Positions 9,596 to 35,184 of a DNA stretch of 35,184 nt are shown piece by piece. Position 1 is the stretch's first letter, and the number at the start of each line of letters is the position of its first letter. A program made the position numbers and the translations under genes. A model generated the notes under the pieces. The model saw only the letters and a list, made by a program, of their open reading frames with translations. It had not been told where the DNA came from and made no database searches. Source of the DNA: Planctomycetota bacterium (lineage in GTDB: Bacteria > Planctomycetota > UBA11346); contig PLEW01000002.1 of the NCBI GenBank assembly GCA_003136555.1, forward strand, positions 1 to 35,184, written 5' to 3'.

Positions 9596-9668
9596 AACCT
9601 AGTGGTATCGGGTGTTCAGGGGGATTTCGGGTGTAATCTCCCTGGTGTTCGCCGAGCACACCACCCCA

Positions 9669-9689: not shown

Positions 9690-9914
9690 ACCGAGACCGC
9701 CACCCCACCCGACCGCACCACCGCCAAGGCCGACACCGTCATCTCCTATGCCCAGGAGATGCGCGACGAGCTCATCGCCTGCCGCACGGTCCTGCGCGAC
9801 GCCAGCCGCGTCCTGCACCACATCCCGATCAGCGAGCACGCCGAGATCATCCTGACCATCCGCAAGATCGACCAGCGCCTCGCCAGCCTGACCTACACCA
9901 TCGGTGCGCCATGA
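9687..9914 (+). CDS. Small helical protein (75 aa)
   Basis: Start fixed by the shared leader. Predicted helices (AQEMRDELIACRTVLRDASR, then AEIILTIRKIDQRLAS), likely a helical hairpin. No family recognised. First gene of its cluster; the stop overlaps the next ATG. Confidence 0.6.
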   Translation: MTETATPPDRTTAKADTVISYAQEMRDELIACRTVLRDASRVLHHIPISEHAEIILTIRKIDQRLASLTYTIGAP

Positions 9915-10540
9915 CCGTCACGATCAACAAGGATGAGACCGTCTCCTCCCACAACCCCGGCTCCGCCGGCCGCGGCAGCATGACCCTGCTCTCCGAGCAG
10001 CGCGGCGTGGGCCTGGTGAACCAGCTGAGCGTCCTGGAGATGATCTGCGCCTACATGCTGGCGCGCAACGGGAAGACCGCCTTCCCCCTGGGCGCCGGGC
10101 CCGAGCTCTACGCCCTGCTGCTCGAGAAGACCGAGGCCTGGGTCACCGCCCGCGCCCAGGCCACGCTGGACGGCCAGCCCATCCCCAAGGGGCCGATCGA
10201 CGAGGAGCTGTGGGCCGAGATCGAGATGCACACCGTCGGGTACTGGCGGCAGTTCATGGTGCACGACATCGGGTCGAGCTTCAACGGGCCGCTGGACAGC
10301 TACCTGGAGGTGGCGTGTGACCATAAGCGGAAGCGGAGCGCGATGCAGGGGCTTGAGGGCTGCGTGGAGACGCAGGGGAGGGGGGTACTGACATGCTCAT
10401 CCCCAACTCCCCCACCCTGGCGTTCCTCGACGCCTACAAGACCACCAATGGCCTGCGCCTGGCGCACCTGCTCGACATCCACGGTCCTGGTTCCAAGGCA
10501 CTGGGCTACGCCATCTCCGGGGTCGCCTGGAACTGGATGA
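9911..10540 (+). CDS. Hypothetical protein, probable out-of-frame C-terminus
   Basis: 209 residues from ATG 9911 (ATGA overlap). Residues 1 to about 158 look genuine (SVLEMICAYMLARNGKTAFP, then ELWAEIEMHTVGYW). After a run of six G at 10380-10385 the reading becomes Ser/Pro/Thr-rich shadow of the next gene. Reading five G instead would give TGA at 10389-10391, just before the next ATG at 10393. Function unknown. Confidence 0.5.
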   Translation: MTVTINKDETVSSHNPGSAGRGSMTLLSEQRGVGLVNQLSVLEMICAYMLARNGKTAFPLGAGPELYALLLEKTEAWVTARAQATLDGQPIPKGPIDEELWAEIEMHTVGYWRQFMVHDIGSSFNGPLDSYLEVACDHKRKRSAMQGLEGCVETQGRGVLTCSSPTPPPWRSSTPTRPPMACAWRTCSTSTVLVPRHWATPSPGSPGTG

Positions 10541-12694: not shown

Positions 12695-12915
12695 GCCTGG
12701 ACGACGATCTGGCCGGCGCAGTCGCCGCCTATCGGCATATCGGGGTGCTGTGGCCCCAGCGCCATCAGCCCGCAGTGCGCCGCTGGGTACGAGAGTACCT
12801 GATGCGCATCAGATCCGTGCAGGATCAGGTGTCCTGGCTCGCCGAGGTTATGCGTAGAGAGCGGCAGGAACAGGCGATGCGCGATGATGAGACACAGGTT
12901 CTTATGGCCCTATAG
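12691..12915 (+). CDS. Small helical protein (74 aa)
   Basis: ATG overlaps the upstream stop (ATGA). Entirely helical (AGAVAAYRHIGVLWPQRHQP, then VSWLAEVMRRERQE). Last gene before the helicase cluster; its stop lies 2 bases before the fourth regulatory element. Confidence 0.55.
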   Translation: MSLDDDLAGAVAAYRHIGVLWPQRHQPAVRRWVREYLMRIRSVQDQVSWLAEVMRRERQEQAMRDDETQVLMAL

Positions 12916-12917
12916 TT

Positions 12918-12937
12918 GTGTGATACACCGTTACGCG
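12918..12937 (+). promoter_or_regulatory. Conserved GTGTGATACA element, copy 4
   Basis: GTGTGATACACCGTTACGCG, identical to copies 2 and 3, 77 bases before the helicase start. CTATAGT just upstream (12909-12915) could be a -10 box of the preceding cluster. Confidence 0.65.
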
Positions 12938-12996
12938 AGCCTAGTGAGACTAATGGGAAATAGAGCATTTCGGCGACATAGTACTCACAACCACCT

Positions 12997-13017
12997 GCCT
13001 GGAAAGGGCACCACATG
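12997..13017 (+). promoter_or_regulatory. GCCTGGAAAGGGC leader, copy 3
   Basis: GCCTGGAAAGGGCACCAC directly before the helicase ATG at 13015; identical to copy 2. Confidence 0.6.
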
Positions 13018-14589
13018 AGCCTCCTCCAACCCATCATCGACGCCACCATCGCCGCGCGCGTCTACTCCCCCTACCAGGAATCGATCTTCCGGGCCTTCAC
13101 CGCTGGCCAGGGCAACGTGGTCGTCGAAGCGGTCGCTGGCAGCGGCAAGACCACCACCCTGGTCGAGGCCCTGCGCCGCTGGCAGCAGGTGCCCGGGAAC
13201 CAGAGCAAGCGTGCGCTGTTCGCCGCCTTCAACAAGTCCATCGCCGAGGAGTTGAGCCGCCGGGTGCCCCGCGGCGTGGACGCGAAGACCTTGCATGGCC
13301 TGGCAATGGGCGCGGTCTCCCGCAAGTTCCGCGGCATCAAGATCGAGGCGCGCAAGCTGCACGTGACCGCCGAGCTGGTGGTGACCAAGGCCCTGACCAC
13401 CGATGAGTCGAAGCCCCAGCTCGAGGTGGTCAACGCCATCGCCGGCGATCTGATCAAGGCTTACGGTCTGCTCCGCGGCACGATGACCAACCTGGCGGAC
13501 GTCGATGCGGTGACCGAGACGATCTCCAACTATGGGATCACTCTCGACCAGCCGGAGAGCTCGATCGCGCTGTTCGGCGAGCTGGATCAGGTGATGAAGT
13601 CCCAGGTCGACCAGATGACCTTTGACGAGATGCTTAGTTTTCCCATCGACCACGCGATCAGCCTGCCCAAGTACGACCTGATCTGCGTCGATGAGAGCCA
13701 GGATCTCAACCGGCTGCAGATCGAACTGCTCAAGCGCGCCCTGTCGCCCGGTGGTCGCCTGGTCGCGGTGGGCGACAGCCGTCAGGCCATCTACCTGTTC
13801 CGCGGTGCCGACGCCAAGGCCATGGAGCGGATCAAGGAGGAGTTCTCCGTAGACAATGGGAACTGCCTGCCGCTCTCGATCACCTACCGCTGCCCCAAGG
13901 CCGTGGTTGCGTTGGCCCAGAGCTGGGTGCCCCACATCCAGGCCGCGGACAATGCCCCCGAGGGACTGGTGATCGAGAAAGAGCCCAAGCAGCTCGGCGC
14001 GACCCTGCTGGCGCTGATGGCCGGCGACATGGTGTGCTGCCGCGTGAACGCCCCGCTGATCGGTTGCGCGCTCAAGCTGATCGCCGCCGGCAAGAAGGCT
14101 GTCGTCCGCGGCCGGGACATCGGCAAGACCGTGGCCAAGCTCGCGACCAAGCTGGCCAAGCGTCTGGGCGACGGGCAGGTCGAGGAGCTGGTCGAGCGCA
14201 TCGACACCTACTGCTCGGTCGAGACCGGCAAGCTCAAGAAGGCCCACAAGGACAGCCAGGTTCAACAGATTGAAGATCAGTGTGAGACCCTGATGGCCCT
14301 GCTCAAGGACGTGGTTTCGATCCGCGAACTGCACAGCCGCATCGAGCAGCTCTTCAGCGATGATTCGGTCGGCGTGGTGTTCTCGAGCATCCACAAAAGC
14401 AAGGGCCTGGAGAGCCGCACGGTGGTCTGGCTCGCCCCAGAGAAGAACGACGCGATGATGTACCGGGCTCGCAATGAGGCCGCGATGGCGCAGGAGGTCA
14501 ATATCAAATATATCGTGGCCAGTCGGGCGATCGAGACTCTTATCATCCAGCCGATGCCGGAGCGTGAGAAGGAAGGGGAGGGAGAATAG
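13015..14589 (+). CDS. UvrD/Rep-like superfamily 1 DNA helicase
   Basis: 524 residues. Q-motif Gln at about 21 (SPYQESIF), Walker A AVAGSGKTTT at 39-48, motif Ia FAAFNKSIAEEL at 69-80, Ib KTLHG at 91-95, motif II DESQD at 226-230, III VAVGDSRQAIYLFRGA near 250-265, IV SITYRCP near 288, V SSIHKSKGLE near 457-466 and VI KYIVASRAIETL near 498. All motifs for a 3'-5' SF1A helicase are present, but it is shorter than cellular UvrD (about 720). ATP-driven unwinding in viral replication or recombination is the likely role. Start fixed by the leader. Confidence 0.92.
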   Translation: MSLLQPIIDATIAARVYSPYQESIFRAFTAGQGNVVVEAVAGSGKTTTLVEALRRWQQVPGNQSKRALFAAFNKSIAEELSRRVPRGVDAKTLHGLAMGAVSRKFRGIKIEARKLHVTAELVVTKALTTDESKPQLEVVNAIAGDLIKAYGLLRGTMTNLADVDAVTETISNYGITLDQPESSIALFGELDQVMKSQVDQMTFDEMLSFPIDHAISLPKYDLICVDESQDLNRLQIELLKRALSPGGRLVAVGDSRQAIYLFRGADAKAMERIKEEFSVDNGNCLPLSITYRCPKAVVALAQSWVPHIQAADNAPEGLVIEKEPKQLGATLLALMAGDMVCCRVNAPLIGCALKLIAAGKKAVVRGRDIGKTVAKLATKLAKRLGDGQVEELVERIDTYCSVETGKLKKAHKDSQVQQIEDQCETLMALLKDVVSIRELHSRIEQLFSDDSVGVVFSSIHKSKGLESRTVVWLAPEKNDAMMYRARNEAAMAQEVNIKYIVASRAIETLIIQPMPEREKEGEGE

Positions 14590-14591
14590 TC

Positions 14592-15281
14592 ATGCCCGCC
14601 TTCCGGGACCTGACTGGGATGACCTTTGGGCGAACCAAGGTACTCAGGCTCCATTCTATGAAGAATGGCAGGTCCTGGTGGCTTTGTCGGTGCTTCTGTG
14701 ACAAAGAGTGGGTTACAACGGGGAACAGCCTTGTTTGTGGAAAAACTACCACTTGTGGGTGCGAGCGGTATATCAATATGGGCAATGCTACTCGGACGCA
14801 TGGGATGAAGCATACGAGCATTTATAATGTCTGGCAGGGCATGCGAAGAAGGTGCCTGAATCCAAGAGAAGCTGGATTCAAGAATTACGGAGGAAGAGGA
14901 ATAGAGATCTGCAAACGCTGGGATAAATTCGAGAACTTCTACGCAGATATGGGAGATCGTCCTGGAGTAGGGAAAGAGGCAACTATAGAGCGAAGAGATA
15001 ACAACGGGAATTACGAGCCCGATAACTGTTTCTGGAAAGACTGGGATACCCAGTGCAACAATAAACGAACCAACAGGAAAATCACCGCACAAGGAATAAC
15101 AAAGAACGTCTGTCAATGGGCTGCCATTAGAGGCATACGGTCAGGGACCATTCGAGCACGGTTAGACAAGTGCGGCTGGTCCGTAGAACAGGCCCTAGGA
15201 TTTCTGGCCCCTCCCTTTGATCCGCATCCGCATAAGTTCTACCCTTCCCGTGTTTACAAATCTTTCATCCAACCAGCCTAG
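14592..15281 (+). CDS. AP2/HNH-type homing endonuclease-like protein
   Basis: 229 residues, ATG 14592 two bases after the helicase stop. The N-terminal DLTGMTFGRTKVLRLHSMKN and WLCRCFCD...CGC give the zinc-ribbon start of this phage family. YNVWQGMRRRCLNPREAGFK, then NYGGRGIEICKRW, then ERRDNNGNYEPDNCFW is the conserved AP2/HNH-associated core. The C-terminus has a small repeat-type DNA-binding segment. Base composition is visibly more AT-rich than its neighbours, a sign of transfer. Its TAG stop falls inside the leader of the next gene. Likely a selfish nicking or cutting endonuclease. Confidence 0.8.
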   Translation: MPAFRDLTGMTFGRTKVLRLHSMKNGRSWWLCRCFCDKEWVTTGNSLVCGKTTTCGCERYINMGNATRTHGMKHTSIYNVWQGMRRRCLNPREAGFKNYGGRGIEICKRWDKFENFYADMGDRPGVGKEATIERRDNNGNYEPDNCFWKDWDTQCNNKRTNRKITAQGITKNVCQWAAIRGIRSGTIRARLDKCGWSVEQALGFLAPPFDPHPHKFYPSRVYKSFIQPA

Positions 15282-15296
15282 AAAGGGCGCCCCATG
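15276..15296 (+). promoter_or_regulatory. GCCTGGAAAGGGC leader, copy 4 (altered)
   Basis: GCCTAGAAAGGGCGCCCC before ATG 15294. It differs from the consensus by TGG to TAG, which supplies the endonuclease stop codon. No GTGTGATACA element precedes it, as expected if the endonuclease gene entered this gap. Confidence 0.55.
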
Positions 15297-15806
15297 ACCA
15301 AGACCCCTACCTCATCCACCAACACCCTCGCCGACCTTTCCCCGGTCGCCGTTTTAGCTTTGTCCAAAATGTTGACCGACACGATCATCGACAATGCGCG
15401 TGATCAAGTCGAGGAAGGCGACTACCCTGTTGAGGTCGTTCTCCACCTGCGCGGCGAGATTTCCGTGGATTCAGATTCTGAAACACTCCAAGTGAATAGA
15501 TTGCAGCCGCTCCTGCTGCTCAAGCTCGCGATGCAGAAGCTCAACTCCATCACGATCGACGTCCTGGTCGCCGAGGCCGCGGAGATCCTGGCCAAGCGCA
15601 ATGAGGAGCGCCACCGCAAGCAGAAGGCCGCCGAGGCCAAGGCCGCGGGCAAGAAGGTGCCTGAGGTCGAGCTCGAGGAGCCGGTCGAGGAAGTCGAATT
15701 CAAAGAGGCCGTCGCCAAGGCCTACAAGCGCCTGGCGCGGAAGACGGCGCAGCGCAAGCGTGGCGCTGTGGTCTTCGAGGGCGATCTCACCCCGGCCGAA
15801 GCCTGA
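15294..15806 (+). CDS. Hypothetical protein, helical, basic C-terminus
   Basis: 170 residues, start fixed by the leader. An N-terminal domain with ADLSPVAVLALSKMLTDTII and beta segment VEVVLHLRGEISVDSDSE is followed by a long charged helix (KRNEERHRKQKAAEAKAAGK) and a basic end. The position behind the helicase suggests a DNA-associated role, but no family is recognised. Confidence 0.6.
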   Translation: MTKTPTSSTNTLADLSPVAVLALSKMLTDTIIDNARDQVEEGDYPVEVVLHLRGEISVDSDSETLQVNRLQPLLLLKLAMQKLNSITIDVLVAEAAEILAKRNEERHRKQKAAEAKAAGKKVPEVELEEPVEEVEFKEAVAKAYKRLARKTAQRKRGAVVFEGDLTPAEA

Positions 15807-15842
15807 TCCTCTCACCTACCAACCCTTGTCCCGGAGTCACCC

Positions 15843-16352
15843 ATGCTGCGCCTCATCCTGATGATCATCGGCCTCACCGCCGCTTGCGACCCCTACTGCC
15901 TCGTCGCCGACGAGTCCCCGCCGCCGTCGAAACTCCCCGCCGACGCCACCAAGCTCCTGGCCAAAGCCGAGGCCGATATCGTGGTGATCCGCAAGGCCCT
16001 GATCGCGGCGCTGACCAAGAGCCAGGCGGAGGCGACCAAGAAGGGGGATCTAGATGGGGCCCTGGCGGTGAAGGCCCGCATCGCCGAGATCGAGAAGGAT
16101 TTGCCGGCCAAGGCGGCGCCTGCACCGACGATTGAACAGCAGCTGGCGGGAACCTACATCAAGGCGGATGGCACCGTGACGATCGTGCTCAAGCCCGACA
16201 TGACCTACACCAACTCCTACCTCAGCCGAGCAGGTAAGTATACCCTCAGAGGCAACCGGCTGACTCTTCAAGGGACGCCCGAATTCTATTTGACCGTGAA
16301 AGACGAGTCGACACTCATCGAGGACGGCGGCAACATGTTCGTGAAGCGATAG
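15843..16352 (+). CDS. Secreted/lipoprotein-like protein with planctomycete-type helical segment
   Basis: 169 residues, GGAG 8 bases before ATG. MLRLILMIIGLTAAC is a signal sequence ending at a Cys, compatible with a lipoprotein or an ordinary signal peptide. Residues about 35-90 form a helical pair containing KKGDLDGALAVKARIAEIEK, a composition I know mainly from Planctomycetota/Verrucomicrobiota secreted proteins. The C-terminal part is beta-rich (GTYIKADGTVTIVLKPDMTY), like a small lipocalin-type or sugar-binding sheet. Probably host-derived cargo acting outside the cytoplasm. Role unknown. Confidence 0.6.
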   Translation: MLRLILMIIGLTAACDPYCLVADESPPPSKLPADATKLLAKAEADIVVIRKALIAALTKSQAEATKKGDLDGALAVKARIAEIEKDLPAKAAPAPTIEQQLAGTYIKADGTVTIVLKPDMTYTNSYLSRAGKYTLRGNRLTLQGTPEFYLTVKDESTLIEDGGNMFVKR

Positions 16353-16356
16353 GCCA

Positions 16357-17160
16357 ATGGATCGTCTGTCCTTTTCTCCGTCAGCACTCATCGAATTCCC
16401 GGGAGATCAACTTGCTCCGTCAGAGGAGACCAAGTACAACTGCGGAATCGCTCGGCAGGGTGATAGCTGCTATCTGTCGTACCGGTTCGGGCATCAGATG
16501 CAGAGCAGGACGGGCATCTGCCTGCTCGACTCGCGCCTTCAGATCGAGTCGTCACGTATTGTCGGCACCAAGGACATCCGGCTCGAAGATCTCCGCCTAT
16601 TCACACATCGCGGGGCGCTCTGCGGCTCGTACACACATACGGACGGCCCTATCCGGATGCGGATATGCCGGTTCAATGCGGACTTATCCATAGAGCGGGA
16701 AGTGGAATTCAAGTTCACGCCGGAGCGCTATGAAAAGAACTGGCAGTTCTTTGACTACCACGGGCGGTTGCTATGCATCTACTCCATCAACCCGCACCGC
16801 ATCTATGAGTGTGATTGGGACGGCGCGTTCGCCCTTATCCACTCCACCCCGTTCCCCAACGACTGGGAGGTAGACGGTAAGCAGCTTCGCGGCGGAACCC
16901 CGCCAGCGCTCTATAATGGGCGCTATTACTCAGCTTTCCACACATCGAACTATTATATGGGCATGTACAGCTTTTCTGCCGAACCACCCTTCCAGGTGAT
17001 CGGCATCTCAAATAAACCCTTTCTCGGGCACAGCGGTACCAGCGTCCATTTCCCGTGTGGCCTGCTCTGCCTCGAGGATTCGTTCCTCGTCACCTATGGT
17101 GAAGACGATAAACGCGCTAAGGCGCTCCACCTTCGGCTACTCAACAGGGGCGCGCTATGA
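16357..17160 (+). CDS. GH130-like five-bladed beta-propeller protein
   Basis: 267 residues. IRLEDLRLF near 72-80, YEKNWQFFDYHG, LLCIYSINPHRIYE, LRGGTPPALYNGRYYSAFHT and HFPCGLLCLEDSFLVTYGED follow the glycoside hydrolase family 130/mannoside phosphorylase propeller motif order. Viral or glycan-cluster relatives often lack clear catalytic residues, so activity is uncertain. It lies with a glycosyltransferase-like gene, suggesting glycan modification. No strong ribosome-binding site is seen. Confidence 0.65.
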   Translation: MDRLSFSPSALIEFPGDQLAPSEETKYNCGIARQGDSCYLSYRFGHQMQSRTGICLLDSRLQIESSRIVGTKDIRLEDLRLFTHRGALCGSYTHTDGPIRMRICRFNADLSIEREVEFKFTPERYEKNWQFFDYHGRLLCIYSINPHRIYECDWDGAFALIHSTPFPNDWEVDGKQLRGGTPPALYNGRYYSAFHTSNYYMGMYSFSAEPPFQVIGISNKPFLGHSGTSVHFPCGLLCLEDSFLVTYGEDDKRAKALHLRLLNRGAL

Positions 17161-20799: not shown

Positions 20800-20939
20800 T
20801 GTCCAACGGCAAAGGCTCCCAGCGGCGCGGTGCATCGCGCGAGGAACGGCAGCGGTTCGAGCGCGGCTGGGAGCGGGTGTTTGGCAAACCGCAGCAGAAG
20901 AAGCGCAAGAAGCGCGGGGACTATCCCAAGGGCTGGTGA
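20799..20939 (+). CDS. Small basic phage protein (46 aa), 'GKGSxxRxxxxExF..W..IFG' type
   Basis: ATG 20799 overlaps the previous stop (TGATG) and its own stop overlaps the next ATG. MSNGKGSQRRGASREERQRF followed by ERGWERVFGK is a well-known short phage family pattern ('MSKGSKQRP..re.F..nW..iFG'), but with a basic KKRKKRGDYPKGW tail. Function unknown. Confidence 0.65.
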   Translation: MSNGKGSQRRGASREERQRFERGWERVFGKPQQKKRKKRGDYPKGW

Positions 20940-21937
20940 TGACTAAGAAACCCTGGAAACCCCGCGCCTCCGCTCTCGGTGGCTACATGCGCTGCACCTG
21001 GCGCGCGGTGCAAGATCGCAAGGTGTACGAGGGCGAACTCCCGGCGCCGATCGAGCGTGTCAGCCCGGGGAACAGCGACCTGGGCACCTGCGGGCACTTC
21101 ACCCTGCAGGATGGCATGCGCTGCCTGTTCCCCAAGAAGCAGATGGTGCGTGACATCGATGCGTTCCTGATGGACCTCGACCGGCGCGATGCCACGGGCC
21201 AGGACTACGACCTGACCGGCGATGAGCAGCACCTCGTGGACATCGCCTGTGAGTTTTTCGGCGGGGACGTGGGGGCGGCCTATAGTGCGTTCCTGGCCGG
21301 CGACTCCCGGTGCTACCAGCCGCGGGCGGCAGACTGGACGATGGCGGCCAAGCTCTTCAACAACGACCGGGCGATCACCCAGAGCGCGGTGCGCGCGACG
21401 GCGACCCTGGCCGCGGGCAAGATGCCGGTGCCGGCGGACGGGGAACCGTACCTGGCCGAGGAGGAATGGGCCAACGACTTTGTCACCGGGCACACCGATT
21501 TCCGCACCCAGGATGGGCTTGTGGTCGGGGACCTGAAGACCACGGCCAAGCCGACCAAGGGTGGGTGGATCAACCCGGATCATCTGCCCCAGATGGCAGC
21601 CTATCACCTGCTGACCGGATGCCAGCGGGTCTGGGTGCTCTATGTCGACTCGCTCAAGGCCAAGTGGGCGAGCCTGGTCTGGATCGACTTCACCAAGCCG
21701 GAGATGATATTCTACGCCGAGCAGGTCGCCGGGTTCTGCCGGTTCCTGATGAGTGATGCCGTGCTACAGCATACGTACCCTGTGGTCGGCGACCATTGCA
21801 CGCGCACCTGGTGTCGCCATACTGTCGACTGCTTCAAGCTCTTCATGCCGCCCCCAGGGCGCGTCTACAACGTCGCCCGCGCCCGCGCTGTCAAGGCTGC
21901 CGGGCCCGTCCGCCTGCCCGTTGCACCCCTCGCCTGA
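20939..21937 (+). CDS. RecB/Cas4-like PD-(D/E)XK nuclease
   Basis: 332 residues from ATG 20939 (overlapping TGA). GHTDFR supplies Asp 187 and VVGDLKTT supplies D198-x-K200, the (D/E)XK active site; DHLPQMAAYHLL at about 214-225 is the RecB-family QxxxY motif. It is a metal-dependent DNA exonuclease, probably acting with the helicase and the VRR nuclease on viral DNA ends. An N-terminal Cys (MRCTW) and three C-terminal Cys (HCTRTWCRHTVDC) resemble AddB/Cas4 iron-sulfur Cys spacing, but this is unproven. Confidence 0.8.
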   Translation: MTKKPWKPRASALGGYMRCTWRAVQDRKVYEGELPAPIERVSPGNSDLGTCGHFTLQDGMRCLFPKKQMVRDIDAFLMDLDRRDATGQDYDLTGDEQHLVDIACEFFGGDVGAAYSAFLAGDSRCYQPRAADWTMAAKLFNNDRAITQSAVRATATLAAGKMPVPADGEPYLAEEEWANDFVTGHTDFRTQDGLVVGDLKTTAKPTKGGWINPDHLPQMAAYHLLTGCQRVWVLYVDSLKAKWASLVWIDFTKPEMIFYAEQVAGFCRFLMSDAVLQHTYPVVGDHCTRTWCRHTVDCFKLFMPPPGRVYNVARARAVKAAGPVRLPVAPLA

Positions 21938-27036: not shown

Positions 27037-27612
27037 TTACTGGATTTCGCGGAGCAGCTCACCTTCCAGGAAGATGTGGCAGTACGTCGAAGCGGTCAGG
27101 GTCCCGCCAGCGGTCGTCAGTGCCAGGAAGAAGTTCTGCACGGGCGGCAAATAAATCGAGTGCAGCAGCGAGTAGATATTCCGCTGGTCCGGCCAGCCGG
27201 TTTCACAGTTGATGGTTCCCGCCGTGGTGGCGGTAGCCGGGACCAGGGTCTGCTGGCTCAGGCCGCCGCCGGCGGTGAGGATGAACGCCGGGATGGTGAG
27301 ATAAACCTTTTCACCCACCTGCAGCTGGTAGAACGCCGCAGCCCAGAAGGCGGCCACGTTGGCGTAGGTCGCGCTGTTGAAGCCGAGCACCTGACGCAGG
27401 GCGCGGATCGAGAAGCGCTTCGGCCAGCTGAGCTGGCCAGCGGTCTGGAGGTTGGTGTAGAGCGCCGAGCGACCGTTGTTCCCGAGGGAGAACAGCGTTG
27501 CGGACGTCTGCAGGGTGGTGGCGAGCAGCACGCTGTCATACAGCGGCTGGTGGATGGCTTCGAGCCGGATCGAGCCGGAGCGGGCATCCTTGACGGTGCG
27601 GAAGACGGGCAT
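27037..27612 (-). CDS. Capsid-like paralogue A (inferred jelly-roll)
   Basis: 191 residues, ATG 27612 with GGAGGAG 6 bases upstream. KDARSGSIRLEAIHQPLYDS, TNLQTAGQLSWPKRF, QVGEKVYLTIP, IYLPPVQNFF and LEGELLREIQ align in order with the proteins ending at 29749 and 30380. The short, strand-rich 180-residue core, ending in 'ippvq.f...l.G.l.REi', looks like a single jelly-roll shell protein. Capsid role is inference. Gene ends at the strong terminator. Confidence 0.45.
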   Translation of the reverse strand: MPVFRTVKDARSGSIRLEAIHQPLYDSVLLATTLQTSATLFSLGNNGRSALYTNLQTAGQLSWPKRFSIRALRQVLGFNSATYANVAAFWAAAFYQLQVGEKVYLTIPAFILTAGGGLSQQTLVPATATTAGTINCETGWPDQRNIYSLLHSIYLPPVQNFFLALTTAGGTLTASTYCHIFLEGELLREIQ

Positions 27613-27810
27613 TGTGTTCTCCTCCCCAAGAGGGGATTCAGGGGACCCGGAACGTGAGGGGCTTCCTCGTTGTTCCAGGAATGGGTATACGGGTCGTTGT
27701 CAGTCCCACATGCAAAGCGCCGGTGGGCAGCGAACCGAATGAAGGCGGTGAAGAGATTGGGAAAGAGCGGCAGGGGCCCACGGGCGGCCCCTACGTATGG
27801 TCTACCTCAA
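27613..27810. other. Gene-free gap
   Basis: Between paralogue A and the membrane protein. Holds the hairpin at 27773-27791 and a TCCCCAAGAGGGGA palindrome near 27624-27637; no convincing ORF. Confidence 0.5.
27773..27791 (-). terminator. Hairpin downstream of the 27811-28482 gene
   Basis: GGGGCC (27773-27778) pairs with GGCCCC (27786-27791) over a 7-base loop, just after the minus-strand stop. No T-run, so a weak terminator at best. Confidence 0.4.
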
Positions 27811-28482
27811 TCAGAGATAGGATTCCATGTACTTGGTGCTCTCGGTCAGGTAGTCGCTGCCGATGCCAGCCAGGTCATCGTCCATGTCCCCGGTGCCGTT
27901 GTAGGCGCGGGCGTCGACATAGCCGGCCAGCTCTTCGCCGGTGCCGTTGTAGGCGCGGGCGTCGACATAGCCGTCGAGCGGGGCCATGTCCCCGGTGCCG
28001 TTGTACGCACGCGCGTCAACGTAGCCCCCGAGACCATTCAGACCGTTCACCGGGCCCTGGACAGCGGCAGCAGGCGCTGCAGCAACGGCCACGGGGCCGA
28101 CAGCCGGGGTGTGGTAGACCAGGCGGGCGATGAGCCCGGGGCTGATCGCCTCGGCGAGCGAGGCGATAGCCCCACCAACCACCAGGGCCTTGCCGAGGTC
28201 ACCCTTGATGAACTTGTTGGCGACGAAGCCGAGGGTGAAGGGCACTGCCGCACCGATCACGCGCTTGGCCATCGGGCCGCTGAGCGCCGGACCCGCGCCA
28301 GGGATGGCGTTGAGACCGGGGGTCACGAGTGAGGTGTTGACGATTCCGCCCAGGGCGTAGGTGGCGACGGCGCCACCGAGCGCGAAGGCGATGTTCTTGA
28401 TCTTGTTCTTGCCCTTGAAGATCCCGAGGATCTCACGGGGAGCTGCCTTGACGGAGCTCACGTACTGCTTGGCGAATCCCAT
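27811..28482 (-). CDS. Late membrane protein with tandem GYVDARAYNGTG repeats
   Basis: 223 residues from ATG 28482, with AAAGGAGA upstream. IKNIAFALGGAVATYALGGI, then PMAKRVIGAAVPFTLGFVAN, then KALVVGGAIASLAEAI are three hydrophobic segments, so it is a multi-pass membrane protein. An Ala/Pro linker leads to three GYVDARAYNGTG repeats and an acidic end. It sits among other membrane proteins of the inferred virion membrane module. The frame stays open upstream to 28671 with an Arg/NP-rich stretch, so a longer form is possible. Confidence 0.6.
   Translation of the reverse strand: MGFAKQYVSSVKAAPREILGIFKGKNKIKNIAFALGGAVATYALGGIVNTSLVTPGLNAIPGAGPALSGPMAKRVIGAAVPFTLGFVANKFIKGDLGKALVVGGAIASLAEAISPGLIARLVYHTPAVGPVAVAAAPAAAVQGPVNGLNGLGGYVDARAYNGTGDMAPLDGYVDARAYNGTGEELAGYVDARAYNGTGDMDDDLAGIGSDYLTESTKYMESYL
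27891..28026 (-). repeat. Three repeats encoding GYVDARAYNGTG
   Basis: 34-base units at 27891-27924, 27939-27972 and 27993-28026, with periods of 48 and 54 bases. The first two are identical at the DNA level; the third has several third-position changes. All in frame in the membrane protein gene. Confidence 0.85.
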
Positions 28483-28846
28483 GGGGTTTCTCCTTTGGGT
28501 GTGGGAACGACGGTGCCGACGTGCGGACGCACGGCGGTGTGAACGACGAGGGTTGGAACAGGAATGACGGCGCTTGCGGGAACGACCGCGATACGGGTTC
28601 CCGAGCAGGGCGAGGTGCAGACCTGGATTGGACATCAGCATCATGGGCATCGGGGTTCTCGTCACGCTCATCAGGAGCGGCAGAAGCGATTGCACATATG
28701 CTGTTGATCGGGCGGCCCCAGCAGAGGAGGCGGCGCAACCACATGCGACACGGCCCAGCCTATGCCCTTCGCCCGATGCACCAAGACCCAGCTCGTATGT
28801 ACGTCTCGGGTCTTGCAAGTCTGTACGTATCTACGTACATACAGGT
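28483..28846. other. Divergent intergenic region
   Basis: 364 bases between the minus-strand membrane gene and the plus-strand capsid island. The minus strand is open in frame back to 28671 and encodes an Arg-rich stretch with repeated NP. The right end (28798-28841) holds the palindromic operator and promoter. Otherwise no gene seen. Confidence 0.5.
28798..28841 (+). promoter_or_regulatory. Promoter with overlapping palindromic operator
   Basis: TTGCAA (28813-28818), 17 bases, TACATA (28836-28841) form a good promoter. TGTACGTA (28822-28829) and TACGTACA (28832-28839) are a perfect 8-bp palindrome spaced by TC, covering the spacer and -10. A further TGTACGT half-site lies at 28798-28804. 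Since the gene starting at 28847 encodes a ribbon-helix-helix domain, autoregulation is likely. The ATG lies only 5 bases after the -10, so the mRNA would be leaderless or start inside the gene. Confidence 0.65.
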
Positions 28847-29749
28847 ATGCCCAAGAAGAAAACCTCGATCACCATGCGCATCGATCCCGATGTGCTGGCT
28901 TGGTACAAAGCACATTCGGAGTCCTACCAGCTCACCATCCAAGAGGTGCTCCAACGTCACATGACGCGCACCACCAACCCCATGCCAGGAGATCTCTCCA
29001 TGCCTGCCGCGACCAAACCACCGAAGAAGACCAAGGACCCCAAGCCGGAGAAAGGCCAGGTCTTTCGCTCGACCGAGGAGTACTGGCAATCCCTGACCGG
29101 CTTCGAGGACGTATCAGACGCAGATCTTGCCAAGCAGCTGGATGATGCCTTGCAGGGCTCGCGTGGCCTGGATGACCTGAAACCATCCCCCGGTGCGCGC
29201 TTCACCGAGCACAAGGATGCTCGGACCGGAACGATCCGCCTGGAATCGTGTCGCCAGCCGCTCTACGACACCCAGGTCCATGGGACCATGTTCAACGTGC
29301 CGATGGGACGCCGCGATGAGTACATCGCTAATCCACCCCCGATCGTCTTCTTCCAGACCGGCGGCGGGCCGAATCGGGGGCCGGCAATCACCAATCTAGC
29401 TACCTCAGGTCAGCTCACCTGGCCCAAGCGTTTCGATCTCGATGGCGTGCGCATCTCATTCTCCCACCTCGTCGACATCTCCGAGGCGCACTTCGAACTC
29501 CAGATCGGCGAGAAGAGGTACCTCACCATGCCGCTCAAGAACATGGAGCGGGACGACGACCCGATCAAGGATGGCGAGTACGGCCCCCTGCTCCCGCGCA
29601 TGCGTCTGAAGCACGTGGGCATCACCCCGACGATCTACATCCCGCCGGTCCAATGGTTCGGCCTGACCATCAATACCGGCGGCAAGCATTTCGAGTCGGC
29701 CGAGATCCGGGTGCAACTCGATGGCACGATCCACCGGGAAATCCAGTAA
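28847..29749 (+). CDS. Ribbon-helix-helix domain fused to capsid-like paralogue B
   Basis: 300 residues from ATG 28847. Residues 4-39 (KKTSITMRIDPDVLAWYKAH then QLTIQEVLQRHM) match the BrnA-type ribbon-helix-helix antitoxin/repressor fold. After a Lys/Pro-rich linker, residues 123-300 align with paralogues A and C: KDARTGTIRLESCRQPLYDT, TNLATSGQLTWPKRFDLDGV, LQIGEKRYLTMP, IYIPPVQWF, LDGTIHREIQ. An internal ATG at 29000 has AGGAG 8 bases upstream and could make the capsid-like part alone. Confidence 0.5.
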   Translation: MPKKKTSITMRIDPDVLAWYKAHSESYQLTIQEVLQRHMTRTTNPMPGDLSMPAATKPPKKTKDPKPEKGQVFRSTEEYWQSLTGFEDVSDADLAKQLDDALQGSRGLDDLKPSPGARFTEHKDARTGTIRLESCRQPLYDTQVHGTMFNVPMGRRDEYIANPPPIVFFQTGGGPNRGPAITNLATSGQLTWPKRFDLDGVRISFSHLVDISEAHFELQIGEKRYLTMPLKNMERDDDPIKDGEYGPLLPRMRLKHVGITPTIYIPPVQWFGLTINTGGKHFESAEIRVQLDGTIHREIQ

Positions 29750-30380
29750 CTCTACCACCACAAGGAGATTCATCACGGCTGAAAAGATCTTCGAAGACCC
29801 GGGCAGAGGCTCGATCGTCCAGGTATATGAAGGAGAGAAGGACGGGGGCCCCTGGCTCGTCGAAGTCCCGGTTGAGTACGTCCATGTCAAGGACCACCGC
29901 AAGGGAGGGGTCCGCCTCGAGAAAGGGCGACGCTCGATCTATGACACCCAGCCGTGGGCGGCCCACAGCACCATCTGCTTCTTCCATAATCCGAACGGCC
30001 GGTCTGAAGCCTACACCAACATGCGCACGGCCGGGCAATTCACCTGGCCGAAACGATTTCTCCTCGACGGGATCCGGATCTCGCTCTCCAAGGTCGTCGA
30101 TATCTCGAAGGCGTCTTTCTACTTTCAGATCGGTGAGAAGCTCTATTTCAACCTGCCGCTCATGAACATGGAGCGGGATGACGACGTGGAGAAGGACGCC
30201 GCTGCTGCGCCAGGGTTGCCGCCGATTCGGCTCAAGCACCTGGGTATCACTCCCAGCCTGTATATCCCGCCCGTTCAACACTTCAGCTTGGTCCTCAACA
30301 CCGGCGACATCGACTGGAGGGACCGCCACGTGGACGTGCGCGTCCAGCTCGACGGCATGCTCTACCGGGAGATCTGCTAG
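29721..30380 (+). CDS. Capsid-like paralogue C, start uncertain
   Basis: Up to 219 residues. KDHRKGGVRLEKGRRSIYDT, TNMRTAGQFTWPKRFLLDGI, FQIGEKLYFNLP, LYIPPVQHFSLVLNTG and LDGMLYREIC align with paralogues A and B. ATG 29721 lies inside the previous gene and has no ribosome-binding site. AAGGAG at 29762-29767 points to 29775, where the in-frame codon is ACG, giving 201 residues starting (M)AEKIFEDPG. An ACG start or a mutated ATG is likely. Its stop and that of the convergent gene share CTAG at 30377-30380. Confidence 0.5.
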   Translation: MARSTGKSSNSTTTRRFITAEKIFEDPGRGSIVQVYEGEKDGGPWLVEVPVEYVHVKDHRKGGVRLEKGRRSIYDTQPWAAHSTICFFHNPNGRSEAYTNMRTAGQFTWPKRFLLDGIRISLSKVVDISKASFYFQIGEKLYFNLPLMNMERDDDVEKDAAAAPGLPPIRLKHLGITPSLYIPPVQHFSLVLNTGDIDWRDRHVDVRVQLDGMLYREIC

Positions 30381-30937
30381 TTCGGCGGCGTGAGCACCGT
30401 GGTCGGGATGATCGAGGCCGGGCTCGCCGGCCGGCGATCGATGTAGGCCACGCTCGAAGCGTTCGGGGCGAGTTGGAAGGTCGATCCCAGCTGCTGCCAG
30501 TGCATCCCGACCGGGGTGGCGGCCGGGGTCTGGGTCCAGGCGGCGCCGTTCCAGATCCACTGGTACCCCCCGACCGGCGGGGTAGCAGGAGGTCCTGAGG
30601 CCTGGGTGGTGCCCGGGGCCGCATAGGGGGCCACATAGCCCGGGGTGCCGTAGGTGGGAGCGGCATACGCCGGGGTGTAGGGCAACCCATATCCGGGGGT
30701 GCCGTAGGCTGGGGCTGCAGGTGCCGCCGTGGCCGCAGCGAGCGTCTGGCCCTGCTGGTTCAGCTGGGCTTGGATCTGGGCGAGGGCCGCGGCATCACCG
30801 GAGGTGCTGGTATCCTCGGCCGCCTTCTTGCTCTTGTGGAAGGCGAGCTTGTAGACCAGGAACAGGCCGACCAGGGCACCGGCGCCGATGCCGAGCGTCT
30901 TGGCGTTCATCTTGAGTTTGAAGGGGAGGGCGGCCAT
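30377..30937 (-). CDS. Late membrane protein, Pro/Gly/Tyr-rich
   Basis: 186 residues from ATG 30937 (GAGGAT upstream). Residues 13-33 (AKTLGIGAGALVGLFLVYKL) are a membrane helix followed by a KSKK stop-transfer. The middle is Ala/Gln coiled coil then a Pro/Gly/Tyr repeat (TPGYGLPYTP, TPGYVAPY). The C-terminal domain is Trp-rich (GGYQWIWNGAAWTQTPAATP). Probably a minor structural protein anchored in the virion membrane. Confidence 0.55.
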   Translation of the reverse strand: MAALPFKLKMNAKTLGIGAGALVGLFLVYKLAFHKSKKAAEDTSTSGDAAALAQIQAQLNQQGQTLAAATAAPAAPAYGTPGYGLPYTPAYAAPTYGTPGYVAPYAAPGTTQASGPPATPPVGGYQWIWNGAAWTQTPAATPVGMHWQQLGSTFQLAPNASSVAYIDRRPASPASIIPTTVLTPPN

Positions 30938-30943
30938 GGTGTT

Positions 30944-31432
30944 CTATCCTCGGAGCCAGGTGTCGACGGTGAAGATGTTACCCTTCCGCCGCTTGATGAA
31001 GAGGTTACCGCGCGAGTCCCTGACCAGCGCCGGCATCACCTTCGCGGTATAGGTTCCGCCCTTGTGGCCGGTGTCCCCAAAGGCGTGTGTCCACCCGAAC
31101 GGATTCTTGTCGGGGCTGATCACTTGCTTGGGCACGAAGTAGTCCAGGGCCTTGATCAGCGCGATCTGCTGGCGCCGTCCGATCGGTGTCGGCACCTCCA
31201 CCAGGCGCCCACCAGAGGCCGGATCGTGGGCGTGGAATCGCCGATGTGCCCGCACGACGCGTGACGGTAACGGTGCCCGGCTGCGCCCCTTGGGCTTGCA
31301 GAGCAGGAATTGCCGCGTCGTGGTGTCCCATCCGAGCCATGTGCCAGGGGTCTTTCGTGTGGTGGTTCGACCGGTGGTGGGATCGACCAGGTGCAGTGCG
31401 AGCAGCCGGCCGATGCCCAGGATCGCTTTCAT
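30944..31432 (-). CDS. Hypothetical basic late protein
   Basis: 162 residues from ATG 31432, overlapping the upstream stop (ATGA); longer forms from 31459 are rejected for that reason. LALHLVDPTTGRTTTRKTPG then TWLGWDTTTRQFLLCKPKGR and a C-terminal domain with GNLFIKRRKGNIFTVDTWL. Many Arg/Lys and Gly/Thr, beta-rich. No family recognised; part of the late operon. Confidence 0.55.
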   Translation of the reverse strand: MKAILGIGRLLALHLVDPTTGRTTTRKTPGTWLGWDTTTRQFLLCKPKGRSRAPLPSRVVRAHRRFHAHDPASGGRLVEVPTPIGRRQQIALIKALDYFVPKQVISPDKNPFGWTHAFGDTGHKGGTYTAKVMPALVRDSRGNLFIKRRKGNIFTVDTWLRG

Positions 31433-31890
31433 GCGCGCTTGGGCTTGAACAGCTTCCACGCGATGAAGCCGGAGATCAGGGCGATGGCGACGCCGGTCTT
31501 GCTGACCGGGCCAATGAACGGGAGGGTCAGGTCGCCGAAGGGCATGTCATCGTCATCATAGGCCCCCATCCCCATCCCCATGTCCCCATCATCGCAGGCG
31601 AGATCCTCGATGCCTGCCAGGTCGCTCGGCTCGGTATAGAACCGGGCGTTCAACGGCTTGCCGAGACCATGAGCCAGGCTCTTGGTGTTGTGGGCCGTGA
31701 TGTTGTGGGGATGGCTCGTGGACAGCTTGTGATCCAGCGGCGCGCTGATCTTGGTCACCGAGGACCGGGTGGTCTGCTGCAGGCCGGGAGTCCGGCTCAT
31801 GCGGGTGCGGGGCTGCTGGACCTGCACCAGCTCACCAGCGCCTCGGCCAGAGAACACCGAGTCGAGCTCGTAGGACATGTCACGTTGCAT
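31429..31890 (-). CDS. Late protein with C-terminal membrane anchor and KPKRA tail
   Basis: 153 residues from ATG 31890 (AAGGA upstream). Hydrophilic N-terminal 100 residues, then an acidic DDDD stretch, then LPFIGPVSKTGVAIALISGF with IAWKLFKPKRA: one helix and a basic end. This tail layout is shared with the protein ending at 33511 (KKLFKRKRA). Likely a C-terminally anchored virion membrane protein. Confidence 0.6.
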   Translation of the reverse strand: MQRDMSYELDSVFSGRGAGELVQVQQPRTRMSRTPGLQQTTRSSVTKISAPLDHKLSTSHPHNITAHNTKSLAHGLGKPLNARFYTEPSDLAGIEDLACDDGDMGMGMGAYDDDDMPFGDLTLPFIGPVSKTGVAIALISGFIAWKLFKPKRA

Positions 31891-31930
31891 GGGTCGGTTC
31901 CTTCAGGAGAGGGGCAGAGGTCTGGTGGGG

Positions 31931-32623
31931 TTAGCGGCGATGGCGCCGGCGGCGGGGATTGGTGGCGACCACGGTTGCCGGCTTGCTGCGGCCGGCCAGG
32001 AGGCCGCCGACGACCAGCACGCCAACACCGCCCAGGATCCAGGGCAGCATCTTGGTGATGCTGGTGCTCTTGCCGGGGGCCGGGGGCATGCCCGCAGGCG
32101 GCATGCCTGGGGGCTTGGGAGCGTTGCTCTTGGCGGTCTCATAGGCGGTGACGCCGGCGGGAACCGCGGAGAACAGGCTCGTCAGGGCGGCCCAGGCGCC
32201 GGTGGGCGGGGCAGCAGGGGCAGCAGGGGATGCAGGGGCCGCTTGGCCAGCCGGCGGCACGTAGCCGGGCGGATTGCCCTCGTCCTGGTCCAGGCCTGGC
32301 GCCGGATCAGCACCCAGACCGGCGAACCCCGCCATCCCGGGCATGAAGCCCTGGCGATTGGCCTGGCTGCGGGTCTTGTAGGTGCGCGCCACACCAGCCT
32401 GGTGGGTCGTGACCTTGGTGCCCTTGATCAGGGTCTTCTTGGAACGCATGCGCGGATCGGGCCCGGCCATCCCGCCGCTCTGCTGGGAGAAGATCTCCAC
32501 GTCCTGGTCATCCTCGAACGGGTTGTCCGAGCCGGTCTCGATCGAGACCGTGTTGCCGAAGGGCTGCAGATCGACGGGCTCGGTGCGGTAGGAGCTATCG
32601 ACGAATGCTTTGGGGAGTGGCAT
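31931..32623 (-). CDS. Late membrane protein, tandem paralogue 1
   Basis: 230 residues. The first ~105 (FVDSSYRTEPVDLQPFGNTV, DNPFEDDQD, QQSGGMAGPDPRMRSKKTL, RSQANRQGFMPGMAGFAGL) are nearly the same as in the next gene upstream. An Ala/Pro linker leads to LPWILGGVGVLVVGGLLAGR, a membrane helix, and a NPRRRRHRR tail. N-terminal out/C-terminal in or the reverse cannot be told. Structural role inferred from the module. Confidence 0.6.
   Translation of the reverse strand: MPLPKAFVDSSYRTEPVDLQPFGNTVSIETGSDNPFEDDQDVEIFSQQSGGMAGPDPRMRSKKTLIKGTKVTTHQAGVARTYKTRSQANRQGFMPGMAGFAGLGADPAPGLDQDEGNPPGYVPPAGQAAPASPAAPAAPPTGAWAALTSLFSAVPAGVTAYETAKSNAPKPPGMPPAGMPPAPGKSTSITKMLPWILGGVGVLVVGGLLAGRSKPATVVATNPRRRRHRR
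32312..32374 (-). repeat. 63-bp segment identical to 33197-33259
   Basis: Both copies encode the RSQANRQGFMPGMAGFAGLG region of the two tandem paralogues. Full identity over 63 bases amid more diverged flanks points to recent duplication or gene conversion. Partner copy at 33197-33259. Confidence 0.9.
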
Positions 32624-32632
32624 GGGTATCTC

Positions 32633-33508
32633 TCAGCGACGGCGTTTGCGGGGATTGGTCTTGGCGGGAGCAGCTGCAGGCGCGGCGATGACGGTGGTCG
32701 AGCGGGAGCCACCACCGAAGACGAGGCCGAGCACCAGCACCAGGCCCACACCGCCAGCGATGTAGGGCCAGTAGGTTTCGACCTGCTTGCCGAGCGCGCT
32801 GGCTGCGGCTGGGAGCTTGCTCTGGGCTGCTTTCGCCTGGGCCGCCTTGGTCTGGGCAGCGAGCACCGCGGTCCCGGTCTGGCCGGCAGCCTGGGTCAGG
32901 GCGGTCAACGCTGTGAGGGCGGTGGCCGCACCACTGGCAGCCTTTGCACCCCCGCCACCTGCTGCAGGAGCGGCAGGCGCGGCGGCAGGGGCAGCTGCAG
33001 GCGTGGCTGCGGCGCTCGGTGCGGGCAGGCCGCTGCCCGGCTGGCCCGGCGCAGGCATCGCGAAGAGGTTCTGGTTCTGGGGTGCCGGCTGGGCGAACAG
33101 GGAGGCATCCTGGTCGGTGGTCAGGGCGTTGAAGTCGGTGGCATCGGCCGGGGTGGCATCGCCGCCGCTACCGCTGTCATCAGTCGGCATGTCGATACCC
33201 AGACCGGCGAACCCCGCCATCCCGGGCATGAAGCCCTGGCGATTGGCCTGGCTGCGGGTGTGGTACGTACGGGACACACCGGCGGGATGCGCGGTGACGC
33301 GTGTTCCCCGGACCAGGGTCTTGCGCGAGCGCATCCGTGGATCAGGCCCCGCCATCCCCCCGCTCTGCTGGGTTACGACCTCGATGCCCTGGTCGTCTTC
33401 GAACGGGTTGTCCGAGCCCGTCTCGATCGACACGGTGTTCCCGAACGGCTGGAGATCGACGCTCTCAGTCCGATAGGAATTGTCGACGAAGGGGCGGGGG
33501 AGGGGCAT
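32633..33508 (-). CDS. Late membrane protein, tandem paralogue 2
   Basis: 291 residues. The N-terminal ~105 residues match the downstream paralogue; 63 bases are identical (33197-33259 and 32312-32374). The middle is Ala/Gln/Pro low complexity. YWPYIAGGVGLVLVLGLVFG near 250 is the membrane helix, then a NPRKRRR tail. The stop is 9 bases before the start of the next gene. Duplication with divergence of the middle part. Confidence 0.6.
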   Translation of the reverse strand: MPLPRPFVDNSYRTESVDLQPFGNTVSIETGSDNPFEDDQGIEVVTQQSGGMAGPDPRMRSRKTLVRGTRVTAHPAGVSRTYHTRSQANRQGFMPGMAGFAGLGIDMPTDDSGSGGDATPADATDFNALTTDQDASLFAQPAPQNQNLFAMPAPGQPGSGLPAPSAAATPAAAPAAAPAAPAAGGGGAKAASGAATALTALTALTQAAGQTGTAVLAAQTKAAQAKAAQSKLPAAASALGKQVETYWPYIAGGVGLVLVLGLVFGGGSRSTTVIAAPAAAPAKTNPRKRRR

Positions 33509-33510
33509 GA

Positions 33511-35184
33511 TCAGGCACGCTTCCGCTTGAAGAGCTTCTTACCGACGGTCTTCCACAGGATGATGCCCAGGCCGATCGCGAGTGCCGGCTTGACCAGGCT
33601 GGAGGCGGAGAAGGCCCCGAGGCCTTCGATCGACGGGGTCAGGGCGGTGCCCCGGCCGTAGCCGGCGCCCCCATCCTCGTTGAGATCGTCCTCGGGGTAC
33701 ATGTCCCCCGTGGCCACGTCGCCGTTGATCCCGGTGTCGAGGTCACTGTCATCGTCGGAGGCCTCGCCGCTGTCGCTGGTGTCCGAGTTGTCACCGCCCG
33801 AGTCGGTGTCCATGTTGTAATACTTGTGCTTCTTGTGCTTCGGGGCCTGGGACGGGGCGTTGTACTGGGACACATCGGTCGAGTCGTCACCGCTGTCGTC
33901 CGGGGTCTCGGTCGCATCGCCCGAGCCATCATCAGTGCCGCCATCATCCGAGCCATCATCACCGCTGTCAGACTGGCCGCCGGCGGTGATGCCCGAGTTG
34001 CCCGAGGGGTCGAACCCGCCGCCACCGCTGGCCGAGACCGCCACGGTGTTCTCGTCCTGCTGACTGTTGTCCGCATAGGACGCCGGGCCCATCTGGTCGG
34101 GCCCGAAGCCGCTGTCGTCCGGGGGACCCTGGTTGGAGTAGTCCGGGGTCGAGGTCAGGGATTCACCGGTGTCGGGGTCATAGGCGCTCGGGTCGGCCGA
34201 GTACCCAGCGCCACCGCTCCCGTAGGATGCCGCGGCATAGGGATTGTAGGCAGATCCACCGCAGTCTGGCGCGGCATTGGTCGCGATCGGGGCTGCCGAC
34301 GGGCCCTGCCAGGCGTAGCACGGGACTCCCATAGATGGGCTCAAGCACCCGGCCACACCGGTGGGGGCACCCGTGGTCATGTTGAAGCATTGGGCGCCTG
34401 GATAGGACGCGAAGACAGATGCCGTCGACCCGGCGCAGTCGGCCGCCGCATTGGTCGGGGTCGGGGCGGTCGTGGGGCCGGTGTAGCTGTAGCACGGCGC
34501 GCCCGTGGAGGGGCTGGTGCATCCCGGCACACCGGTCGGCTGACCCGTGGTCACGTTGAAGCATTGAGCGCCCGGGCCGCTGGCATAGGGGCCCATGACC
34601 TGGGGGTTGTATCCAGACACCGGAGCCATCGGGCAGTCCGGGGCCGCGTTGGTCGCGGTCGGGGCGGTCGTGGCGCTGGTGAAGGTCCAGCAGGCCGCAC
34701 CGGTCGACGGGCTGAAGCATCCGGTCGCACCGGTCGAGGCACCGGATGCGCTGAAGCAGGTCCCGCCGGGGAACTGGGACAGGGTCGACGCGCCGGTGGT
34801 CTGGGTCACGGTCGCGCCCGGGGTGCCCGGCGCGTAGACGCAGCCGGTCGTGTTCAGGGCGCTGCCGTTCGCGTCGAAGCAACTCTCAGGGGTCGACGGG
34901 TTCAACATCAGGCTGTTGTACAACCCAGCGCTGATGATATTGCCGTTGGCGTCTTCATACTGGGTCGCCGGGGTCGCCGGGGTCGAGGGAGCCTTCTGGG
35001 TGCTGGTGACGATCTGCTTGAGCGCCTGGTTCATCGGGTTGGTGACGTTCTGGACGTCACTCGTGAGCGCCGCCTTCACCGAGCCGCCGGTGGCGACGGT
35101 CTGGGCGAGCTTGATCGGGTCGACCACGGTCGCGACCGCAGCTTTGACGGGGACCGTGATGCTGGCGACCACGGACTTGGCCAC
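33511..35184 (-). CDS. Large late membrane-anchored protein with Cys-rich repeats, 5' partial or at window edge
   Basis: 557 residues visible; the first codon is a GTG exactly at the window edge, so the true start is probably beyond it. Residues 143-308 hold three repeats with spacing C-x(12-13)-C-x8-C-x18-C (CFNVTTGQPTGVPGCTSPST, then CYSYTGPTTAPTPTNAAADC). Then a Ser/Asp/Gly-rich linker with long acidic runs, and a C-terminal membrane helix (VKPALAIGLGIILWKTV) ending KKLFKRKRA. A disulfide-rich surface or spike protein anchored in a virion membrane is the best guess. Confidence 0.6.
   Translation of the reverse strand: MAKSVVASITVPVKAAVATVVDPIKLAQTVATGGSVKAALTSDVQNVTNPMNQALKQIVTSTQKAPSTPATPATQYEDANGNIISAGLYNSLMLNPSTPESCFDANGSALNTTGCVYAPGTPGATVTQTTGASTLSQFPGGTCFSASGASTGATGCFSPSTGAACWTFTSATTAPTATNAAPDCPMAPVSGYNPQVMGPYASGPGAQCFNVTTGQPTGVPGCTSPSTGAPCYSYTGPTTAPTPTNAAADCAGSTASVFASYPGAQCFNMTTGAPTGVAGCLSPSMGVPCYAWQGPSAAPIATNAAPDCGGSAYNPYAAASYGSGGAGYSADPSAYDPDTGESLTSTPDYSNQGPPDDSGFGPDQMGPASYADNSQQDENTVAVSASGGGGFDPSGNSGITAGGQSDSGDDGSDDGGTDDGSGDATETPDDSGDDSTDVSQYNAPSQAPKHKKHKYYNMDTDSGGDNSDTSDSGEASDDDSDLDTGINGDVATGDMYPEDDLNEDGGAGYGRGTALTPSIEGLGAFSASSLVKPALAIGLGIILWKTVGKKLFKRKRA
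34261..34758 (-). repeat. Three cysteine-rich protein repeats
   Basis: Repeats of about 42 residues, each with four Cys at fixed spacing (residues 143/156/165/184, 208/222/231/250, 266/280/289/308 of the visible protein). The ends share 'SPSxGxxCYxxxGPxxAPxxTNAAxDC'-like order. Confidence 0.85.

Follow-up and report, generated by a model that had tools for sequence, protein, structure and literature searches.

Capsid-like paralogues and membrane proteins in a virus-like genome binned with a planctomycete suggest a large, distant relative of Salisaeta icosahedral phage 1

Capsid-like paralogues and membrane proteins at the locus

We analyzed a 35,184-nucleotide stretch of DNA (the window), positions 1 to 35184 of the 62,461-bp contig PLEW01000002.1 (C205), which is contained in a 5.9-Mb metagenome-assembled genome (MAG) of a Planctomycetota bacterium. 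From position 27037 to its right-hand end, the window carries genes for three paralogous capsid-like proteins set among genes for membrane proteins (Table 1); a fourth paralogue lies farther along the contig. An earlier interpretation made from the DNA letters alone (the sequence-only reading) had taken this region for the structural module of a tailless, membrane-containing virus, and had described three β-rich paralogues of about 180 residues that share a series of motifs in the same order. The ordered motifs were confirmed in all three, an alignment that also includes the fourth copy has 25 invariant columns, and the paralogues find one another within their own genome at E values of 4e-16 to 3e-44. 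The common length did not hold: the second paralogue has 300 residues, with a PF14384 domain at its N terminus and a linker ahead of the capsid-like part.

The fusion of a ribbon-helix-helix domain to a capsid-like domain recurs in two related genomes, G004 and G005; in a protein of the latter (37300-38349) a DnaJ-like zinc motif sits between the two domains. Comparison of the third paralogue with sequence L004 revealed a frame change upstream between the window and its near relatives, so the part of this protein before about residue 50 is uncertain. A suspected fifth copy, picked out by eye at 47371-47826 of the related genome G001, was not confirmed by a hidden Markov model search.

Structures were predicted with AlphaFold. 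The 191-residue paralogue, with 16 aligned sequences, gave a β-rich model with a predicted local distance difference test score (pLDDT) of 67.5 and a predicted template modeling score (pTM) of 0.64; the core of the third paralogue (29865-30377) gave a better one (pLDDT 79.2, pTM 0.77). The first match of the 191-residue model in a Foldseek search of the PDB was chain 6oj0_Z of Sulfolobus polyhedral virus 1 (SPV1; E 3.9e-4, probability 0.99, TM-score 0.35), followed mostly by single-jelly-roll capsids of picornaviruses and plant viruses, and also by the PRD1 vertex protein. The third-paralogue model matched mostly jelly-roll capsids as well (best E 6e-3), including those of satellite panicum mosaic virus and other plant viruses, SPV1, the penton of FLiP, and PR772. 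In BFVD, the first match of the 191-residue model was I1ZBH9, a 211-residue viral protein (E 1e-5, TM-scores 0.59/0.54) that equals gp46 and gp35 of Salisaeta icosahedral phage 1 (SSIP-1) in length; its identity as either was not confirmed. Both modelled paralogues thus match viral single-jelly-roll capsid proteins, which supports the fold class assigned to them by the sequence-only reading, although the low TM-scores do not show exact kinship. The nearest solved fold was that of SPV1, not that of VP16/VP17 of P23-77, with which a comparison had been suggested.

Searches at the sequence level gave no match to the capsid profile or proteins in the PDB, Pfam, PHROGs, or INPHARED phages, and the capsid protein had none among 72,556 PLSDB plasmids. 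Against solved capsid chains, including those of P23-77 and SH1, alignment A1 found nothing at E values up to 10, and A3 found nothing to a capsid. Matches to Staphylococcus phages at E 0.4 were attributed to chance.

All six membrane-helix proteins that had been placed around the paralogues were found there, each with a hydropathy maximum of at least 1.6 (Table 1); in four of them a C-terminal helix is followed by a short Lys/Arg-rich tail. The protein encoded directly upstream of the capsid gene has 276 residues, with an Arg-rich, NP-containing N terminus, if it starts at the ATG at 28641, and 223 residues if it starts at 28482. Membrane-helix proteins are commoner in the structural half of the genome, 25 of 61 against 8 of 84 (Fisher p 1.4e-5). 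Small proteins with 29 to 43% Lys plus Arg adjoin the transglutaminase-like gene in G001, G005, G006, and G007; on C205, very basic small proteins (37 to 40% Lys plus Arg) are encoded upstream of this gene, at 36944-38808. The motif R-R/K-N-P is strongly over-represented in the structural proteins of G001 and G005 (7 against 0.2 to 0.3 expected), but not in those of G006. A cleavage-like motif shared by the family and SSIP-1 (M/I/L-x-G-x-G or small-G-hydrophobic-G) showed a modest excess over shuffled sequences, partly owing to Gly-repeat proteins, and was not used. The 162-residue basic protein had no Pfam or PHROG match.

Table 1. Features of the structural module, followed by other genes; coordinates are those of C205 unless another contig is named (aa, amino acids)
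Feature	Coordinates	Strand	Basis
Putative major capsid protein (single jelly-roll), 191 aa	27037..27612	-	Orthologues 48-95% identical; alignment A2
Gly/Ala-rich membrane protein directly upstream of capsid gene	27811..28641	-	Hydropathy maximum at least 1.6; 8/8 contigs and L068
Ribbon-helix-helix domain, linker, and capsid-like jelly-roll domain, 300 aa	28847..29749	+	PF14384 E 2.1e-9; alignment A1
Third capsid-like paralogue, 219 aa	29721..30380	+	Core modelled
Small protein with N-terminal membrane helix, 186 aa	30377..30937	-	Hydropathy (maximum at least 1.6)
Conserved basic protein, fold not recognised, 162 aa	30944..31432	-	7/8 contigs and L068
C-terminally anchored membrane protein, KPKRA tail, 153 aa	31429..31890	-	Hydropathy (maximum at least 1.6), contig comparison
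C-terminally anchored membrane protein, TNPRRRRHRR tail, 230 aa	31931..32623	-	Hydropathy (maximum at least 1.6), contig comparison
Paralogue of the preceding protein, C-terminally anchored, TNPRKRRR tail, 291 aa	32633..33508	-	81% DNA identity over 314 bases; hydropathy maximum at least 1.6
Transglutaminase-like, C-terminally anchored protein (C-terminal part)	33511..35184	-	Gene reaches 36837, past the window; 1108 aa in G001; hydropathy maximum at least 1.6
Fourth capsid-like paralogue, outside the window	46989-47681
Serine recombinase, core set, 324 aa	24395..25369	+	PF00239 E 2e-16, phrog_95 E 9e-36; 8/8 contigs
Four small core genes adjoining recombinase, one with N-terminal membrane helix	22228..24392	+	Each in 8/8 contigs
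Core protein, weak match to CRISPR/Cas-associated PHROG	20936..21937	+	phrog_1706 E 0.005; 6/8 contigs
UvrD-family helicase	13015..14589	+	PF00580 E 5e-24; only clear Walker A protein in window
Primase/helicase-like plus family A polymerase, 1625 aa	G001 5613-10490	+	Also in G005, G009
The same	C174 22347-27221	-

The transglutaminase-like protein and SSIP-1

The 1108-residue transglutaminase-like protein had a single match among 50,697 phage records, gp34 of SSIP-1 (tblastn E 4e-7), which is annotated as a structural protein. Alignment of its N-terminal domain with gp34 by hhalign gave a probability of 98.2 and an E value of 5e-14 over 125 columns, and a scan of IMG/VR with the transglutaminase-like domain returned family members and SSIP-1 only. 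In two relatives (G010 12826-16968, minus strand; L068 about 1510-3300) the protein has an intein-like insertion that ends in VVVHN and is followed by CDD, exactly before the conserved cysteine of a DCD motif; the site of insertion points to this cysteine as a probable functional site.

When profiles of 32 structural clusters were compared with 21 SSIP-1 proteins, gp34 alone was significant. With gp45 and gp46 taken as the two SSIP-1 capsid proteins, both capsid profiles placed gp46 highest among 28 SSIP-1 proteins, at a weak absolute score (probability 3%), and alignment A8 matched gp45 plus gp46 weakly (E 0.0044, probability 8%). A search for bridging viruses with gp46 as the query found SSIP-1 itself alone. 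SSIP-1 is an unclassified orphan in the NCBI taxonomy.

A family of 88- to 110-kb genomes

C205 and a second contig of the same bin, C174 (29,174 bp), which encodes a DNA polymerase, are colinear, mostly at 98 to 100% identity, with a 96,773-bp IMG/VR contig (IMGVR_UViG_3300030518_000006, here G001). Neither C205 nor C174 contains a stretch of host chromosome, which indicates that the element was co-binned with the MAG; its host is presumably bacterial. The whole element measures about 92 to 97 kb, about three times the window, in keeping with the earlier estimate of a virus of at least 35 kb. The window is probably the left third of a circular virus-like genome of this size.

Profile searches of IMG/VR recovered G005 (109,520 bp), with an exact 110-bp end repeat, and G006 (87,639 bp), with an exact 96-bp end repeat; because of these repeats both look like closed circles. 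Further relatives were G007 (94,993 bp) and several fragments, and the family ranges from 88 to 110 kb. A Planctomycetota MAG has the same module on a contig of 22 kb. A search of 84,980 species genomes gave just one related locus, and the module was absent from all 58 genomes related to the bin.

The 191-residue paralogue occurs in all 10 lineages, across which 22 columns are invariant among 16 sequences, far above chance, and a tree sets this universal copy apart from the two other paralogue types. The number of copies detected rises from one in G006 to two in G007, three in G005, and four in G001. Because the 191-residue copy alone occurs in all genomes, and none but it was detected in the closed G006, we infer that it is the main shell protein. 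Other genes present in at least six of eight contigs encode the adjoining membrane protein, the serine recombinase and its four small neighbours, the transglutaminase-like protein, the anchored membrane proteins, the 162-residue protein, the UvrD helicase, and a set of β-rich-looking proteins at about 51 to 54 kb of C205. The gene order transglutaminase-like protein, membrane proteins, capsid gene is conserved between lineages.

One of the four small genes beside the recombinase had a weak endonuclease match. In the 1625-residue protein, a primase/helicase-like part is apparently joined to a family A DNA polymerase (PF00476 E 7e-10, phrog_17 E 7e-77). On the reverse complement of G001, at 43375-47387, a duplicated small-gene cassette (about 76 to 97% identical) flanks a Dcm-like methyltransferase gene beside the fourth capsid-like paralogue.

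Nature of the element and comparison with known viruses

We favor the view, with a probability of about 0.72, that these genomes belong to bacterial viruses of a new lineage, tailless and with a single-jelly-roll shell and an internal membrane; SSIP-1 would be a distant relative of half the size. The sequence-only reading was probably right about the class of virus; its analogy with P23-77 and SH1 held only in part, and the closest isolated phage, SSIP-1, was one it had not named. No description of the family was found in the literature searched, which was confined to openly licensed text. Several points weigh on the other side. No particle has been observed, the TM-scores to solved capsids are about 0.25 to 0.46, and the alignments held 16 sequences. 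The transglutaminase-like domain also has matches in cellular transglutaminases (E 7e-5), so homology to gp34 alone is no proof of descent, and SSIP-1 and the new family could have acquired this gene independently. In addition, no counterpart of gp40, the RecA-like structural ATPase of SSIP-1, was found.

Alternatively, the element could be a tailed phage with head and tail genes that have diverged beyond recognition, its jelly-roll proteins serving in decoration or receptor binding. In favor of this explanation, the genome encodes a number of long fibre-like proteins and has a family A polymerase that resembles those of tailed phages. However, profiles for terminase (PF03237) and portal (PF04860) matched none of four near-complete genomes, whereas controls were positive, and in the closed G005 the 48 proteins encoded by the structural half that were scanned matched 11 PHROG families in all, none of them terminase, portal, capsid, or tail. 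More of the large uncharacterised proteins of G005, G006, and G007 gave PHROG matches to primases and to weak or uncharacterised families only, and inspection revealed no tape-measure-like gene. In the remaining half of G005 this result covers the best 25 of 77 PHROG families, so a weak terminase match may still lie there. Just as none had been noted in the window, no terminase, portal, HK97, or tail family was recovered by the Pfam and PHROG searches of the closed relatives; with the homology to SSIP-1, this makes a tailed phage improbable.

It is just as improbable that the element is a large plasmid or other nonviral element that uses jelly-roll and transglutaminase-like proteins at the cell surface or in storage. 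A serine recombinase, methyltransferases, and the lack of a packaging motor would suit such an element, but the capsid protein is unmatched among plasmids, the locus is nearly absent from the species genomes and absent from those related to the bin, and the similarity to capsids and the homology to an SSIP-1 virion protein argue for a virus. Least likely is strict membership of the P23-77/SH1 group (Helvetiavirae, Halopanivirales), whose members have two different capsid proteins, each a vertical single jelly-roll, and an FtsK/HerA ATPase: small jelly-roll paralogues and many small membrane proteins are shared, but an A32-like or FtsK/HerA packaging ATPase, proposed earlier as a thing to look for, was not found in the four near-complete genomes (no PF01580 match above cut-off), a Walker A scan found UvrD and D5-type helicases as the only recurring proteins of this kind, the closed G006 has one detectable paralogue only, and the solved P23-77 and SH1 chains lack a sequence match.

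For the tailless virus that we favor, virion shape, membrane, capsid role, and mode of packaging are deduced from the genes. The genome, circular double-stranded DNA, would be that of a bacterial virus whose icosahedral shell encloses a lipid membrane. The 191-residue single jelly-roll would build the capsomers, and its paralogues would probably fill other positions in the shell, as a second capsomer type or at the five-fold vertices. A role in regulation, or in tethering DNA, is conceivable for the copy that has a DNA-binding domain. The proteins encoded at 27811-28641 and 30377-36837 would lie in the membrane with their basic tails facing the DNA, and the transglutaminase-like protein would be a virion protein in common with SSIP-1. 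Since a packaging motor could not be recognised, very basic small proteins from the neighbouring genes would probably compact the circular genome, which would become enclosed as the virion assembles. Such packaging by condensation is plausible, given that SPV1 and FLiP have no packaging ATPase (PMC8812541), that SPV1 holds circular double-stranded DNA in a nucleoprotein core (PMC8459092), and that basic proteins and the R-R/K-N-P motif are present here.

More tentatively, the family may be a new lineage of high rank that, at 90 to 110 kb, is the largest of this architecture, fills its virions without a motor by means of Arg-rich proteins that condense the circular DNA, and, with one to four copies of the capsid gene, records the duplication step that has been proposed to lead to viruses with two capsid proteins. 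The copy-number series would be a natural test of how such viruses arose. A related family of 88 to 110 kb would also supply the orphan SSIP-1 with relatives and show that tailless bacterial viruses can have a large gene content; it raises the question of how 100 kb is packaged when no motor can be recognised. Double-jelly-roll viruses of prokaryotes are described as having genomes of under 20 kb (PMC8812541).

The best-supported isolated relative is SSIP-1, described as a phage that contains a membrane and two types of capsid protein, possibly single jelly-roll, and that has a T = 49 shell and 44 kb of circular double-stranded DNA (PMC6356626, PMC6260650, PMC4958249). The new virus would have in common with SSIP-1 circular double-stranded DNA, a bacterial host, and a tailless form with an internal membrane (PMC6356626, PMC6260650); the two share the transglutaminase-like gp34 by sequence and a membrane-protein-like gene ahead of the presumed capsid genes. 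They differ in size (44 kb against 88 to 110 kb), in that only one protein is clearly shared, in the gp40 ATPase, and in that capsid sequence similarity lies below significance. SPV1 (Portogloboviridae) provides the best solved match of the 191-residue model, but it has a genome of about 20 kb and an archaeal host, and no sequence similarity to it was found. The Thermus phage P23-77 and the Haloarcula viruses SH1 and HHIV-2 (Matsushitaviridae, Sphaerolipoviridae) likewise combine single-jelly-roll capsids with many small membrane proteins, but their FtsK/HerA ATPase was undetected in the new family and no sequence match was found; SH1-like genomes are about 30 kb (PMC12643093). The Flavobacterium phage FLiP resembles the proposed virus in being tailless, with an internal membrane and no packaging ATPase (PMC6260650), and its penton protein is among the matches of the third-paralogue model.

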